DNA of 53,236 bases from an uncultured Fidelibacterota bacterium. Lineage in GTDB: Bacteria; Fidelibacterota; Marinisomatia; Marinisomatales; UBA1611. The translations under genes were made by a program, and so were the position numbers. Location: NCBI GenBank assembly GCA_902562835.1, contig CACEUX010000011.1, positions 1-53,236 of the forward strand, read 5' to 3'. The notes under the pieces were generated by a model. That model saw only the letters and a program-made list of their open reading frames with translations, searched no databases and had not been told where the DNA came from. Of this stretch, positions 2,586 to 8,422 are shown one piece after another (the first letter of the stretch is position 1; every line of letters starts with the position of its first letter).

Positions 2586-4915
2586 TGAGTTTTCGCATAC
2601 ATCACTATTTCTTTCTTGTCGTGTTGTTTTTGAGCTGTGAAGGACCGGTGTTTGACGTTCCTGCAGATGAAGACTCTACTCCCCCCACACTGACCATTAC
2701 CTTCCCTGCAGATCAGTCAGTGCTATCAGACACTGTTTTAATAACTGCCTATGCCTTTGATAATGTAGAACTTGAAATGGTCACCTTATACTTAAACGAT
2801 TCAGTCGTACATGAAAGTAAGGAAGGTCCTTATGAATACTCGTGGGCAACTATAAATGATACTGAAGATGAGCACCATACTATACGTGCAAAAGCTCAAG
2901 ACCTATCTGGGAATGTCAATTATACAAATACGATACAGGTCTTGGTTGATAATCAAGATAATATAAACCCTACTGGTGCACTTATTTTCCCTTTTACAGG
3001 ACAAACATTGGCAGGAGAGGTCACAATTATTATCGAAGCAGATGACAATGAAGGTATCTCCTTTATCAACCTTTATATTGATGGAGATTCTGTAGCAACA
3101 TTTGCTGAACCACCCTATAGATACACCTGGAATACAGTCGAAGAGGTTGATGATATTATTTACACGATCCATGCCCATGTTCAAGACATCACAGGGAATC
3201 AGATCACTTTAGGTCCCATCAATGTGACCATTGATAACTATGAAGCAGATGATAATATAGCTCCTACTGGAACTATTATATCCCCTCCTTCAGCCTCTAC
3301 GGTCTCTGGTACGATCGATATTGAGGTAAATGCCTATGATAACGTGCAAATGGGTGCAGTAGATTTTATAATTGACGGTTCTGCGGTGGCAACTGATACG
3401 GTGCCGCCCTACATTTATACTTGGAATACCTTAGATGAGATAGAAGATACAGATCATGTGATCAATGTGAACCTTTCTGATTCTGCTGGTAACACTACGT
3501 CCCTTTTCCCCGTTACTGTTTACGTTAATAATATTTCTGAGCCGGATGTAACCGCACCAACAATAGTGATTTATGAACCTGCGGCAAATCAGACCGTTTC
3601 CGGTACTACTACGTTCTTGACCATTGCAACAGATGAAGTAGGTGGCTCAGGAATAGATCGCGTTGAATTCTATCATGATTATGCATTAGAACATACTGCT
3701 ACATCATATCCCTATAACTATGATTGGAATACAACCACAGTGGCAGAAGACACAGAACACATATGGTATGCAAAAGCATTTGATAATAACGGTAACGAAT
3801 CACAGACCCAACCCATGACCGTTTTTGTTGATAATGTGGATAATATTCTCCCAACTGGTTACATACTGTATCCATACGCGGGTCAGACCGTTTCCGACTT
3901 AATAAATGTACAGATCTCAGCATCAGATAACATAGGTGTGGCACAAGTAGAAATCTTTATTGATGGAAATTCAGTAGCTACAGACCAAGATCAACCATAC
4001 AGCTACGAATGGGACACTTACACCTTTTCAGAAGATGAAGAGCATATTTTATATGCTACTATTACAGATTACGAAGGAAACGCATATGATATTCCCTCTA
4101 TTTCAGTAACAGTGAATAATGATGATTCTCCTGAAAATGATGTTACACCTCCAGTCATTTCTATTTTAACGCCATTGTCATCACAAACGGTAAGTGATAG
4201 TGTCACTATTTCAGGATTTGCTACCGATAACGATGAAGTAGAACAGGTCCAATTCTTTATTGATGATGAGTTAGTAGCAACCTTAACGGATTCACCCTAT
4301 ACTACACTCTGGGGTACCTATGACCTGGTAAATAATTCTGAGCATGTCATACAAATGATGGCAAGTGACCCATCCGGAAATCAATCTTCCGCACAACCAA
4401 TAATGGTCACGGTTGTAAATCAATATACAGGAGTAATTGAAAACCTCGCAGTCTCTGCTGGTGAGAATATTATATCACTTAGCTGGGATACACCATCTGA
4501 TGCTGAATCCTATAAGATATATAAGGATGGACAGTTTATGTCTGAGGTCTCAGAACAGACCTATGAAGATGTTGCTCAGCCAGGGACACAATATTGTTAT
4601 AGCATTTCTGCAGTTAATGGTGTGGGGCTTGAAGGCCCTCAATCCACTGAAGAATGTGCGACTGCCTTATTCCCCGACGCACCAGTACTATCTCTAAGTG
4701 TCAGTGGAACCACAGCGACCCTTCAATGGACATCTATTGCCTCAGCTCAGTCTTATAGGGTATATCAGGATGAAGTATTTCTAATTGAAGTTGAAGACCT
4801 AAATCATTCCCAAGATATAGGAACGGGTATAAATACATGCTTTGAAGTGACATGCGTGAATGGCTTTGATACGGAAAGTCCTGTTTCTAATGAAGAATGT
4901 GGAGAAGGTCTCTAG
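2585..4915 (+). CDS. lipoprotein with six Ig-like repeats and two FN3-like domains
   Basis: The 776-residue product has a signal peptide ending in LFLSC (Cys18), so it is a likely lipoprotein. Residues from about 30 to 610 hold six Ig-like repeats of the same kind as the preceding gene (PTG..., GQTVSG, YxYxWNT, EH.I...D..GN, VDN). About 165 C-terminal residues form two fibronectin type III-like domains (SWDTPSDAESYKIYKDG and QWTSIASAQSYRVYQDE), each with a conserved Cys pair. The shared repeats and lipobox indicate duplication from a common ancestor with the preceding gene, and the FN3 pair is the main difference. A cell-surface binding or structural role is inferred. Its end overlaps the convergent minus-strand gene by 3 bases. 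Confidence 0.85.
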   Translation: MSFRIHHYFFLVVLFLSCEGPVFDVPADEDSTPPTLTITFPADQSVLSDTVLITAYAFDNVELEMVTLYLNDSVVHESKEGPYEYSWATINDTEDEHHTIRAKAQDLSGNVNYTNTIQVLVDNQDNINPTGALIFPFTGQTLAGEVTIIIEADDNEGISFINLYIDGDSVATFAEPPYRYTWNTVEEVDDIIYTIHAHVQDITGNQITLGPINVTIDNYEADDNIAPTGTIISPPSASTVSGTIDIEVNAYDNVQMGAVDFIIDGSAVATDTVPPYIYTWNTLDEIEDTDHVINVNLSDSAGNTTSLFPVTVYVNNISEPDVTAPTIVIYEPAANQTVSGTTTFLTIATDEVGGSGIDRVEFYHDYALEHTATSYPYNYDWNTTTVAEDTEHIWYAKAFDNNGNESQTQPMTVFVDNVDNILPTGYILYPYAGQTVSDLINVQISASDNIGVAQVEIFIDGNSVATDQDQPYSYEWDTYTFSEDEEHILYATITDYEGNAYDIPSISVTVNNDDSPENDVTPPVISILTPLSSQTVSDSVTISGFATDNDEVEQVQFFIDDELVATLTDSPYTTLWGTYDLVNNSEHVIQMMASDPSGNQSSAQPIMVTVVNQYTGVIENLAVSAGENIISLSWDTPSDAESYKIYKDGQFMSEVSEQTYEDVAQPGTQYCYSISAVNGVGLEGPQSTEECATALFPDAPVLSLSVSGTTATLQWTSIASAQSYRVYQDEVFLIEVEDLNHSQDIGTGINTCFEVTCVNGFDTESPVSNEECGEGL

Positions 4916-5670
4916 GGGAAAAGACTGTCTCCGTTGCACGCAGTTTGTGCATGATCGAGTAAAATAGATTCATATTTATCCGAATCAAAAATAATGATCC
5001 CTGCCTCAGGATCTGATAAATCAATGGTGCAATATTCTGGTGCAATCGTATTTGCATACGTGAGGGTGTCATAACTCATACTATCTTCTGACATCTCCAA
5101 CACAGAATAGGTGTAATACATCCATCCGGAAGATGTCCAATAATTTGTGTCTAAGATCATTTCAGGAAAATCCATAATTCCTGCAGTATCTCCTATTGAA
5201 GTGAGAGGTTGACCTAATTCAAGGCGGAACATTTCTGGAGTTGCATAATTTATAGGATCGATACATAGGAACAGTGAATCATACCCTTGAATAGTCCAAT
5301 TACCACCAGGCTTATAACAAAAAATAAATATAGAATCTGAAAAATTTCCAACATTTGTTGATCGATCTTTTGCTCTAATCTTATAAAAAATATTTTCAAG
5401 CCAAATGATGGATGTATCTTTATAATCATGGATAGGAAAGGATACCCTATCTAAAGAATCAAAACTCATGCCCTGATCCATAGATCTGAAAATATGATAC
5501 TCCTTTATATCATCGGCGGGTGGTTTTTCCCAGGACAATTGAATTCTTGCCTGATTATTGCCCATTGTAAAATACCCCTTTAGTCCAACTGGTGGAGTTG
5601 GTGGTTCCTCATCAATCAATTGACAATGCAATATAAGAAAAGAAAAAGAAATATATATAATTCTTTGCAT
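4912..5670 (-). CDS. FN3-containing putative lipoprotein
   Basis: The 252-residue product starts with a short hydrophobic segment ending in LILHC (Cys16), a poor lipobox because His precedes Cys, so lipid anchoring is uncertain though export is likely. Residues about 25-115 resemble a fibronectin type III domain (QLSWEKPPADDIKEYHIFRS ... FYKIRAKDRSTNVGNFSD). The remaining 140 residues, rich in Asp, Tyr and Ser, are not recognised. The gene lies downstream of tRNA-Gly, separated from it by a terminator, so it probably has its own promoter, though I cannot identify one in the 30-nt leader. Its 3' end overlaps the convergent Ig-repeat gene. Confidence 0.75.
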   Translation of the reverse strand: MQRIIYISFSFLILHCQLIDEEPPTPPVGLKGYFTMGNNQARIQLSWEKPPADDIKEYHIFRSMDQGMSFDSLDRVSFPIHDYKDTSIIWLENIFYKIRAKDRSTNVGNFSDSIFIFCYKPGGNWTIQGYDSLFLCIDPINYATPEMFRLELGQPLTSIGDTAGIMDFPEMILDTNYWTSSGWMYYTYSVLEMSEDSMSYDTLTYANTIAPEYCTIDLSDPEAGIIIFDSDKYESILLDHAQTACNGDSLFP

Positions 5671-5853: not shown

Positions 5854-6303
5854 TTATTCTGACAATGGGGTTTTTGGATAAATTTCTAGAACCCTATTTT
5901 TTGAATAAAAAATAATATAGGATGCTCCTAAAAATACAATATTCTCAAGTATCTTTGACCATCCTACCATTTCACCTTCTTTTAATCCGCAACCACACTC
6001 TATATTGAATCCTCTCATCATTGCTTGAAATATCATCAAGATAAAAAGAACCAGTAATCCACCACTAAGGAAAACCGAGCCATCAAGAAATATTCCAAGA
6101 ATAATACCAAAACCGATCAATAATTCGATCCACGGAAGAAAAATCGCAATACTATTCTCAAGCCCAAATGGAACAATATGATAATTAGCTATATCCCTCG
6201 CAAACTTTCCAGGGTCTAGAATCTTATCATAGCTAGCATAAATAAATACAAGCCCTAGAAGGAATCTGATCAATAAAATAAGTGTAGGATTGATTCTATT
6301 CAT
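5854..6303 (-). CDS. DoxX/MauE-like membrane protein
   Basis: This 149-residue protein has four likely membrane helices (about residues 8-24, 50-72, 76-95 and 118-134). The RFLLGLVFIYASYDKILDP start is typical of DoxX and MauE-type proteins, small inner-membrane proteins linked to thiol or sulfur redox partners. A Cys-Gly-Cys motif (Cys103, Cys105) lies in the loop before the last helix, as in MauE relatives that may carry reducing equivalents. Its start overlaps the end of the rhodanese gene by 8 nt, so the two are probably translated together. A role in membrane thiol transfer is inferred, not shown. Confidence 0.8.
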   Translation of the reverse strand: MNRINPTLILLIRFLLGLVFIYASYDKILDPGKFARDIANYHIVPFGLENSIAIFLPWIELLIGFGIILGIFLDGSVFLSGGLLVLFILMIFQAMMRGFNIECGCGLKEGEMVGWSKILENIVFLGASYIIFYSKNRVLEIYPKTPLSE

Positions 6304-6778
6304 GATATTCTATCTCAAGTCCTGCATCTTTCCATGATTTCCAACCACCCCTAAAGACCAGAATATTATTAAACCCTATATCTTGAAAATGATAAGCAAG
6401 CTCTTCACTGGAACCACAATCATCATCACTACAATAGATAACGAACCCTGTATCAAAACCTATCTTTGTCTCTATCTGGTCTGCAAGCATAGAAATATCA
6501 TCACTAGCGATAGCACCTGGAATAAAGCCATCTGAAAGATACTCTTCTGCTCTAGCATCAACGAATAATATTCCTGATCCATGTAGGGCCTTGGCAGTTT
6601 CGATCTCTACTTCTCTGATTGAAGGTTCAGCAAGGAAATCGAGTGCATCCTCAGAATTATTTACAATCTTAATTGGTTCTGCTACCCAGGGAATACCATC
6701 GTCACTTAATGAATTGAAAATAGACCCGATCAATATAGATAGAGCAATAAGGATTATGCTCTGTTTTTGATAGTCCAA
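6296..6778 (-). CDS. membrane-anchored rhodanese-like protein
   Basis: The 160-residue product has an N-terminal membrane anchor (residues about 6-24) and a single rhodanese domain (about 50-155). The motifs FVDARAEEYLSDGFIPGAI, YCSDDDCGSS and FRGGWKSWKDAGL are characteristic. Cys116 occupies the catalytic position that carries a persulfide in active rhodaneses, and Cys121 lies five residues on. The domain should face the periplasm. It lies 16 nt downstream of the selenoprotein gene and overlaps the DoxX/MauE-like gene, so it probably acts with them in sulfur (or selenium) relay. The substrate is unknown. Confidence 0.85.
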   Translation of the reverse strand: MDYQKQSIILIALSILIGSIFNSLSDDGIPWVAEPIKIVNNSEDALDFLAEPSIREVEIETAKALHGSGILFVDARAEEYLSDGFIPGAIASDDISMLADQIETKIGFDTGFVIYCSDDDCGSSEELAYHFQDIGFNNILVFRGGWKSWKDAGLEIEYHE

Positions 6779-6794
6779 GATCTATATAAGGGTA

Positions 6795-7991
6795 TTAATG
6801 ATCATGACCATGATGTGATCTTGAAGATTTTTTTGATTTTTTCTTTGCTTTAGCGGATTCTGCAGATTTTTTTCGATCTAAAGCATTACATATTTTTACT
6901 GACTCATTAACAAATGCTAATAACTCATCATCATCCTCAACCTTATTATTGAGAGGGATGGTCTGAAATTGGATGGTATTTACAGCATCATCTATAGCTT
7001 TTTGTGATACAACCAGGTCTTCTCTATAACGATTTATTAGATTTAATACATTTTGTTTTTCTGCATATATCTCATCAAGTGTTTTATTAGGGTCTTTCTT
7101 TTGAAGCTTATCAAACCTTTTATTAATGGACCTTATTTTTTTCTCTTGTGCAGTAACGTCTATAAATGGCTTTTTAATATCTCTAAGGTTAACATCAAGA
7201 GATAATAAGTACTTTCCTTGCTTCCCGCACGAATACATGTAGGGTCCATCTTCCTTTTGAGGGCTATTTGCTCTGGACATATTCACACTTCCGCTCGTCA
7301 CAATAAAATCAACATTCGGCATTTGATCTACGAGGGCACCCTGTGATCCCCTATCGGCATTGACGAGCATGACAACTATATCAACTTGGTTTGAAAGAAG
7401 TTCAGCATAATGATTAGCAGACTCTATATAGTCATCAGCTAATATTGATCTGCTTGTATCTGGAAGTTGGCTTGTAACACCAGCGACACCGATCTTCAAC
7501 TCTCCTCTATCGATTATGAGATAAGGTTTGAAAATTAGCTCGCTAGTTGAAGCATCCTTTAGATTAGCGGAGATAAAAGGTATATCAGTTTTATTGGATA
7601 TATTTTTTAAGTACTTTAAACCATTCAAGACCTCATAGTGACCAACATTTATAGCATCACCCCCTATCCTGTTGAAACCCTCCAGCATAGCATCAGCACG
7701 AGTCAGTTCTGCATTTTTATTTTGAGCATCAATTTTTTTGGTACTGAAGATAAGGTCTCCTGCATCAAGAATGATCGGATCAATACCTCTGTCTCTTATT
7801 TCTTTTATTTTTACAGACCTTCTGGACAGACCGCCCAGTGGATTCTTTTTTCATCCACATGGATCTAATTGACCATGCATGCTACCAGATAGTACCATTG
7901 TAAAGTCACCATGCCCTGAAGCTTCTGAACATGTCCATGAACTCATTGTAATTATTAATAAAATTGTGAAATGTTTTATGATCGATCTCAT
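6795..7991 (-). CDS. putative selenoprotein, metallophosphatase (5'-nucleotidase) fold, Sec47
   Basis: Read from the ATG at 7991 the gene encodes 398 residues if the in-frame TGA at 7851-7853 is read as selenocysteine. Residues 1-25 form a signal peptide, possibly with Cys21 as a weak lipobox (SWTC). Next comes SGSMHGQLDPCG-Sec-KKNPLGGLSRR, matching the motif I recall as HGxLEPCGC...LGGLARR in metallophosphatase relatives, where Cys stands at the Sec position. A DAGDLIF motif follows. The fold resembles 5'-nucleotidases, but usual metal ligands are altered: DxH is SMH, GNHE is GHYE, and GGHSH is TSGSV. The C-terminus is Lys-rich and ends in HHGHDH. TGA is a normal stop at 9770, 22150, 22818, 30103 and 46797. 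The start lies 7 nt after the yciH stop. A nonsense mutation is the alternative, but the open frame continues with conserved residues and a SECIS is present. Confidence 0.85.
7817..7843 (-). promoter_or_regulatory. bacterial SECIS element
   Basis: Immediately after the in-frame TGA (7851-7853) the minus-strand RNA can form CUGGGC/GUCCAG (7833-7838 with 7822-7827) closing a GGUCU loop (7828-7832). A second short helix (7841-7843 with 7817-7819) lies below a 2x2 internal loop. The loop begins 18 nt after UGA. The fdhF SECIS of E. coli, which binds SelB, has the same GGUCU loop bases at the same distance. The hairpin lies in coding sequence, as bacterial SECIS elements do. Confidence 0.8.
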
Positions 7992-7998
7992 TTTTAAA

Positions 7999-8322
7999 TT
8001 ATCCACCGCTTAATTTTACGTCATATCCTTTTTTTAACAATAATTTTTGAATGATAGGACGTTGATTACCCTGAATCAATATCTCACCATTCTTAAATGA
8101 ACCTCCGGTACCACACTTCTTTTTTAATTCTTTTGTTATTTCCATAATTTTTTCTTTTGGTTCCTTCATGCCTTTAACTACTGTCACAATCTTACCTCCG
8201 CCTTTTCTGTCAAGATGAAGACGTACTTTTTGTTGCGAAGCTCTTACGCTTTTTGTTGTAACACTTTCTTCTAAATTTGATAGTGTTGTATCGGTCGAAT
8301 AAACAAGTTTTGAGTTAGACAT
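7999..8322 (-). CDS. yciH: SUI1/YciH family translation factor
   Basis: The 107-residue protein is a bacterial SUI1 (eIF1-like) protein. The signature KKKCGTGGSFKNGEILIQGN is at residues 67-86, preceded by VRLHLDRKGGGKIVTVVKG. Family members bind the small ribosomal subunit and are thought to influence start-codon fidelity. A TTG at 8340 would add MFVIKL; I prefer the ATG at 8322, which opens directly into the conserved N-terminal YSTD region. It is the first gene of the minus-strand run that contains the selenoprotein, rhodanese and DoxX/MauE-like genes, with only 7 nt to the selenoprotein start, so it may drive their transcription. Confidence 0.9.
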   Translation of the reverse strand: MSNSKLVYSTDTTLSNLEESVTTKSVRASQQKVRLHLDRKGGGKIVTVVKGMKEPKEKIMEITKELKKKCGTGGSFKNGEILIQGNQRPIIQKLLLKKGYDVKLSGG

Positions 8323-8422
8323 CAGTTTTATAACAAACAAAGAAAATAGAAAAATGTTCCCCGCTAAACGGTGTAAAAATACTAATTTTTTGATTCAATA
8401 ACACAATATCAATCCGCTGAAT

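Follow-up and report, generated by a model that had tools for sequence, protein, structure and literature searches.

The question that this locus raises is whether a TGA codon inside a gene of an uncultured Fidelibacterota bacterium is read as selenocysteine, and, if it is, what kind of enzyme the resulting selenoprotein might be. In the window, by which we mean the whole stretch of 53,236 nucleotides that was analyzed (contig CACEUX010000011.1), the minus strand carries an UshA-like frame of 398 codons that runs from an ATG at 7991 to a TAA stop codon at 6795-6797, and its sole interruption is one TGA at 7851-7853, which occupies residue 47 in the peptide LDPCG-U-KKNPLGGLSRR and would complete a P-C-G-U motif. 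A standard gene caller reports instead an ORF of 297 aa (6795-7688), and thus both the continuous frame and the truncation described in the first-pass annotation are found as it stated. The hydrophobic N-terminal signal segment (7929-7991, minus strand), which that annotation had also recognized, ends by eye in a lipobox-like SWTC that contains Cys21; a cysteine is present at the lipobox position in most rows of our alignment A1, and the protein is probably a lipid-anchored, secreted one. At the other end, the C-terminus has a His-rich tail, SHHGHDH (6798-6818), with similar tails in several close relatives (for example HDGHNH in L001 and HSGHNH in L003), although it is missing from many other rows of A1; metal binding by this tail is possible. 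When non-overlapping ORFs of 100 aa or more are counted across the window, 9 of 44 end in TGA, which is therefore still a stop codon here; the code is not altered generally, in agreement with the earlier view that any recoding is local.

A candidate SECIS hairpin of the SelB type lies within the coding sequence at 7822-7838 on the minus strand, with a 6-bp stem (CUGGGC/GUCCAG, including one G-U pair) that closes a GGUCU loop at 7828-7832, and it would direct selenocysteine insertion at the TGA. The loop begins 18 nt after the TGA, and when measured from its sequence the fdhF gene of Escherichia coli K-12 also has GGTCT at 18 nt, confirming the likeness to fdhF in loop and spacing that had been claimed, although the two differ in stem sequence, in fold details, and in the protein encoded. 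Among the 2,511 TGA triplets on both strands of the window, 10 are followed by GGTCT at 17 to 19 nt, and only the one at 7851-7853 combines this with a stem of at least 3 bp. When the peptide and the codon use of the gene are held fixed, 507 of 20,000 synonymous versions contain the loop with a stem of at least 6 bp, and the 61-nt fold at the site has a z-score of -1.94 (12 of 200 shuffles are as stable), its minimum-energy form containing five of the six stem pairs. An Rfam search of the site gave no meaningful match, returning two chance matches to eukaryotic RNAs. The window hairpin alone is modest evidence for recoding, and it is the comparative evidence that settles the matter.

Two sets of loci, which overlap in their genomes, provide this comparison. 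The first came from searching 61 related genomes with the NCBIfam profile NF041198, 49 loci being read out of a longer list of matches, and the second, of 61 loci, from a contig scan for homologues. TGA is present in 44 loci of the first set, the window's own included, and the Cys loci there are two orthologues (G046 and G056) and three tetrahaem paralogues (L076-L078); in the second set there are 59 TGA loci, with the status of L113 and L138 taken from protein lines, and two TGC loci (L137 and L146). Both sets together contain 103 TGA and 7 Cys among 110 loci, duplicates between sources included, and the exchange of cysteine and TGA anticipated for the column of residue 47 is thus observed. 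In the second set, 47 of the 61 loci are recorded as Candidatus Marinimicrobia/Neomarinimicrobiota, 6 have an unspecific assignment (TMED46 among them), and the remaining 8 are from Deltaproteobacteria, Myxococcota, or other Proteobacteria. In our tree, G046 and G056 are sister to the 47 selenocysteine rows of Marinimicrobia, with several branches flagged as long.

Because the two sets overlap, distinct sequences were counted, and the 102 usable TGA sequences (L138 being dropped for an N) reduce to 67 distinct 39-mers. GGTCT stands at 18 nt in 66 of them, the exception being L027, which is shorter by one codon, with GGTCT at 15 nt. The stem in these 66 is 7 bp long in 21, 6 bp in 25, 5 bp in 14, and 4 bp in 5, and in L114 it has 0 bp, with a closing C-A. 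Pair 15-27 of the stem shows strong compensatory change, varying on both sides, as GC in 39 sequences, AT in 17, CG in 5, GT in 3, and TA and TG in one each. Pairing is thus kept in all 66, where shuffled sequences average 43.3 and none of 1000 shuffles, which ignore relatedness, reaches this count. Pair 14-28 is formed in 61 of the 66, which 8 of 1000 shuffles of the same kind reach, and each of the remaining stem pairs shows little or no variation, varies on one side alone, or pairs no better than in shuffled sequences. A synonymous-codon null across the homologues gives 289 in 33,000. A full hairpin is present in none of the seven Cys loci, the nearest being L137, which has GGTCT with a 3-bp stem. 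This Marinimicrobia homologue of the Cys type (4001-5098, TGC) contains GGCGGTCTGCC, with the loop 15 nt downstream, and from its sequence the loop is perhaps the remnant of a SECIS.

The selenocysteine machinery is partly present in the organism's own genome (G000; 1.83 Mb in 97 contigs, 77.7% complete). There is a tRNA-Sec at 64.6 bits with anticodon UCA and a selD over cut-off at 380 bits (locus L149, G000:C5:72141-73067), and the latter, with an in-frame TGA in GSG-U-ACK, is by its sequence a selenoprotein gene itself. Of the machinery genes looked for, selC and selD are thus found, and neither selA nor selB was found in this 77.7%-complete MAG. Both are present in the two genomes of the same genus, G001 (the same assembly as L086, TMED46), in which selA, selB, selD, and tRNA-Sec are all over cut-off with selB and selA adjacent, and G002, which has selA, selB, and selD and a borderline tRNA-Sec match of 47.1 bits. 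The 18-kb stretch around the selAB genes of G001 has a single 42-bp match in G000, so that this whole region, rather than two genes alone, is missing from the assembly. Across the 61 genomes, selA is over cut-off in 54, selB in 53, selD in 49, and tRNA-Sec in 41, the last comprising 36 matches of at least 57 bits and another 5, regarded as borderline, at 47.1 to 49.0 bits, where the scores may belong to other long-armed tRNAs. Specificity at the tRNA-Sec cut-off is incomplete, since it is also passed in 5 of 14 control genomes.

The eight genomes in which selB is not over cut-off are G000, G004, G014, G028, G031, G046, G049, and G056. A TGA homologue is present among the loci read in three of these, which are 78% (G000), 60% (G004), and 55% (G014) complete. 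The nearly complete genomes G046 (98%) and G056 (96%) have none of selA, selB, selD, or tRNA-Sec over cut-off, and their homologue has TGT and no hairpin; the pair serves as a natural control in favor of recoding. The rule that links selenocysteine or cysteine to selB is not a perfect one, however: the genome of L137 (Cys) has no selB over cut-off, while that of L146 (Cys) has one and that of L141 (Sec) has none.

These data leave little room for the reading in which the TGA is a real stop, with the gene either a pseudogene or expressed as the internal 297-aa ORF. The ordinary use of TGA as a terminator in the window and the missing selA and selB are in its favor, but it is very improbable given that TGA recurs at the same codon in 44 related loci (own included) with the homologous frame continuing beyond it, that the hairpin is conserved and covaries across these relatives, and that an internal start would lose both the signal segment and the invariant motif. 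A base-calling or assembly error masking a true TGC, TGT, or TGG, conceivable for a codon seen in one MAG contig, is refuted by the same TGA in independent assemblies of relatives, such as L086, whose protein is 97% identical to that of the window, L087, and L088, with the preponderance of TGA in the second set and the lack of a full hairpin at every Cys locus also against it, and its probability is negligible. The TGA at 7851-7853 is thus almost certainly decoded as selenocysteine, and for recoding together with the UshA fold and the extracytoplasmic nature of the protein we would give a probability of roughly 0.9, a figure from which the substrate is excluded.

The first-pass annotation had hinted that no selenoprotein of this family was described, and in this respect it does not hold. 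The best family match of the window protein is NF041198, "UshA-like (seleno)protein" (UshA_like_PCGU), at 222.9 bits against a curated cut-off of 275, with profile positions 2-403 of 519 aligned; the cut-off is passed in none of the 61 related genomes. The window protein has the UshA-like N-terminal domain with its PCG(U/C) motif, while it contains no CxxCH corresponding to the multihaem C-terminal part (profile positions 403-518), which we take as defining NF041198 from the profile length and from L140 and L141. These two, the selenocysteine members from outside Marinimicrobia that were scanned, pass the cut-off at 305 and 283 bits, respectively, and L146, of the Cys type, scores 38.5 bits and lacks CxxCH. 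The family corresponds to an entry in the 2008 GOS survey, "COG0737, UshA-like, CxU" (PMC2398784), for which the survey gives the figures 76, 20, and 92, taken here as selenocysteine sequences, samples, and Cys homologues, and in which the UshA-like family, SelD, and FdhA are named as exceptions among the major families having conserved Cys-based redox motifs. It also appears in two reviews (PMC9312934 and PMC13188914), in the second of them as NF041198. A second profile for UshA-like selenoproteins, NF049981 (UshA_like_Sel_2), gives the window protein 29.4 bits, where its cut-off is 140, and its motif is CxxU (tabulated in PMC13188914) rather than CxU.

The gene is very probably a genuine selenoprotein gene of a known, uncharacterized family, with which the Marinimicrobia clade shares the N-terminal domain, the P-C-G-U/C motif, and the position of the SECIS. 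It differs in that its members end without the four-CxxCH cytochrome tail of L140 and L141, fall below the cut-off, and mostly lie beside rhodanese and MauE genes. No account of this haem-less clade or of its gene order was found in the accessible portions of the open-licence literature, including PMC2398784, PMC13188914, PMC9312934, PMC8318568, and PMC5029168, and a literature search on periplasmic MauE with rhodanese gave nothing related by title; the haem-less subgroup, with its conserved neighborhood and its eroded metal site, is apparently new.

An AlphaFold2 model, built from the window protein together with 41 others encoded at loci of the second set, has a mean pLDDT of 89.7 and a pTM of 0.84, and its top Foldseek match is E. 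coli UshA (2ush; E 3e-20, TM 0.51 by query), so that the predicted fold is that of the UshA 5'-nucleotidase. The two proteins diverge at what in UshA is the metal site. In the hhalign alignment, residues P44-C45-G46-U47-K48 stand opposite a gap in UshA, which lacks the PCGU insertion, just after its D41-x-H43 strand, and MAFFT places the same gap one residue earlier. The ligand and catalytic positions of UshA, which we take to be D41, H43, D84, N116, H217, H252, and Q254, plus H117 (the residues of seven of the eight were checked in the alignment), are retained at two of eight in the window protein (H43 and D84), and thus the two-metal ligand set of the calcineurin-like/5'-nucleotidase metallophosphatases is not found in it. 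Over 45 rows, for which the H252 and Q254 columns were mis-set by MAFFT and were moved by hand, no position is kept in 5 rows, one in 9, two in 26, three in 1, four in 3, and five in 1; all eight are together in none, and the row with five is L141. Across the 42 rows of alignment A2 there is no variation at C45, G46, or residue 47 (with U written as C); the scan patterns that brought in these rows lean towards the PCGU motif region. The tetrahaem paralogues L076, L077, and L078 have E-N-C-L-C in place of P-C-G-U and keep four of the eight UshA positions, and L076 has four CxxCH.

Immediately downstream of the selenoprotein gene on the same strand are a rhodanese-domain gene with the active-site loop YCSDDDCG (6296-6778; PF00581, 43 bits) and a gene for a MauE/DoxX membrane protein with an ECGCG motif (5854-6303; PF07291, 98 bits), and directly upstream, ending 7 nt before the ATG, is a SUI1/YciH gene (7999-8340, minus strand; PF01253, 70.6 bits). 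Of the 61 loci of the second set, contig-end cases included, 42 have a relative of the window rhodanese and 40 a MauE relative, in each case downstream and on the same strand; the 19 and 21 loci, respectively, where no such relative was found include some that are cut by contig ends. SUI1 is present in 41, directly upstream in 35 (34 by the neighbor scan, with L135 added from coordinates) and about 1.4 kb away in 6. None of the three was found at the 8 loci from outside Marinimicrobia, at the PCGU paralogues L106, L107, L114, and L134, or at L137. The rhodanese loop is YC-x4-C in 41 of the 42 loci, L131 being cut, and the CGCG pattern occurs in 27 of the 40 MauE stretches. That the neighboring rhodanese might itself be a selenoprotein was considered and rejected on the strength of this loop; the only TGA within a matched rhodanese stretch, in L123, falls near codon 154 of 160 and is by position the terminal stop.

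Outside Marinimicrobia the partner is a fused cytochrome. Four CxxCH are present in a C-terminal extension in six of the eight loci (L138, L140, L141, L142, L143, and L144), and among the selenocysteine members there, six of seven are fused to such a four-CxxCH cytochrome, with L145 cut by a contig end. Other associations proved to be local ones. Directly before the PCGU paralogues of L106 and L107 is a gene of the thioredoxin fold (AhpC-TSA/ResA-like; L106:3233-3898 and L107:3342-3980), that of L106 being ResA-like by NCBIfam under its cut-off, and a general link to ResA-like genes was dropped, as it holds for 2 of 61 loci. In G046 and G056 a PepSY_TM-like gene precedes the Cys gene, with no rhodanese or MauE match in the 10 kb read, and a general link to PepSY genes was likewise dropped, since PepSY_TM occurs only at these two Cys loci (L148 is under the Pfam cut-off).

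From the CGU insertion at the former two-metal site, the loss of most ligands, and the redox and sulfur proteins that are neighbors or fusion partners, we infer that the protein is not a nucleotidase. The main competing possibility is that the selenocysteine is real but structural or metal-binding, and that the protein has kept a metal-dependent activity as a nucleotidase or esterase. The UshA fold is consistent with this, and the retention of D79 in 37 of 45 rows and of H39 in 25, together with five of eight positions in L141, makes some metal binding possible; however, the equivalents of N116 and H117 are kept in 2 and 1 of the 45 rows and those of H217 and H252 in 5 each, and a Pfam search of the window protein gave no match with E of 0.05 or lower, Metallophos and the nucleotidase C-terminal domain included, and we consider this possibility unlikely. 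SoxB is a two-metal enzyme, and a role like that of SoxB on SoxY, with an UshA-fold protein acting on a sulfur-loaded carrier, could be suggested by the adjoining rhodanese gene and by profile matches that include the thiosulfohydrolase SoxB (TIGR04486, 50.8 bits against a cut-off of 550; 4uwq, 40.1 bits), but UshA scores higher among the PDB sequences (81.7 bits) and most of the two-metal ligand positions, in UshA numbering, are changed, such that this role is quite improbable.

A redox function rather than a phosphatase one is the reading that we favor with reasonable though not high confidence, and it is drawn mainly from the redox and sulfur proteins that are encoded next to, or fused with, members of the family. 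The two-metal site would have been dismantled and replaced by the inserted C-G-U motif, and the product would be an extracytoplasmic Sec/Cys redox enzyme with C45 and U47 as the redox pair, which might act as a reductase of sulfane sulfur, a disulfide, or another oxidized substrate, with the rhodanese as a sulfur-transfer partner and MauE as a membrane thiol partner. Sulfane sulfur in particular as the substrate is a tentative and rather doubtful suggestion. The fuller proposal, in which a phosphatase fold has become a selenocysteine-dependent reductase outside the cytoplasm, with a Cys-Gly-Sec loop replacing the two-metal site, a fused tetrahaem cytochrome feeding it in Deltaproteobacteria and Myxococcota, and separate rhodanese and MauE proteins doing so across Marinimicrobia, has in our judgment a little less than an even chance of being correct.

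Of the 15 families sampled from this marine, largely uncultured group, the tree shows the selenoprotein clade in at least 13; standard gene calling would truncate its genes, and its members fall under the curated NCBIfam cut-off. Three SAR406 single-cell genomes are given as "orphan SelD" in Table 1 of PMC5029168, and since selA and selB are each found in most of the relatives studied here, these cells may instead be incomplete selenocysteine users. For the uncharacterized UshA-like CxU selenoproteins, function now becomes testable, as redox chemistry with named partners against nucleotide hydrolysis.
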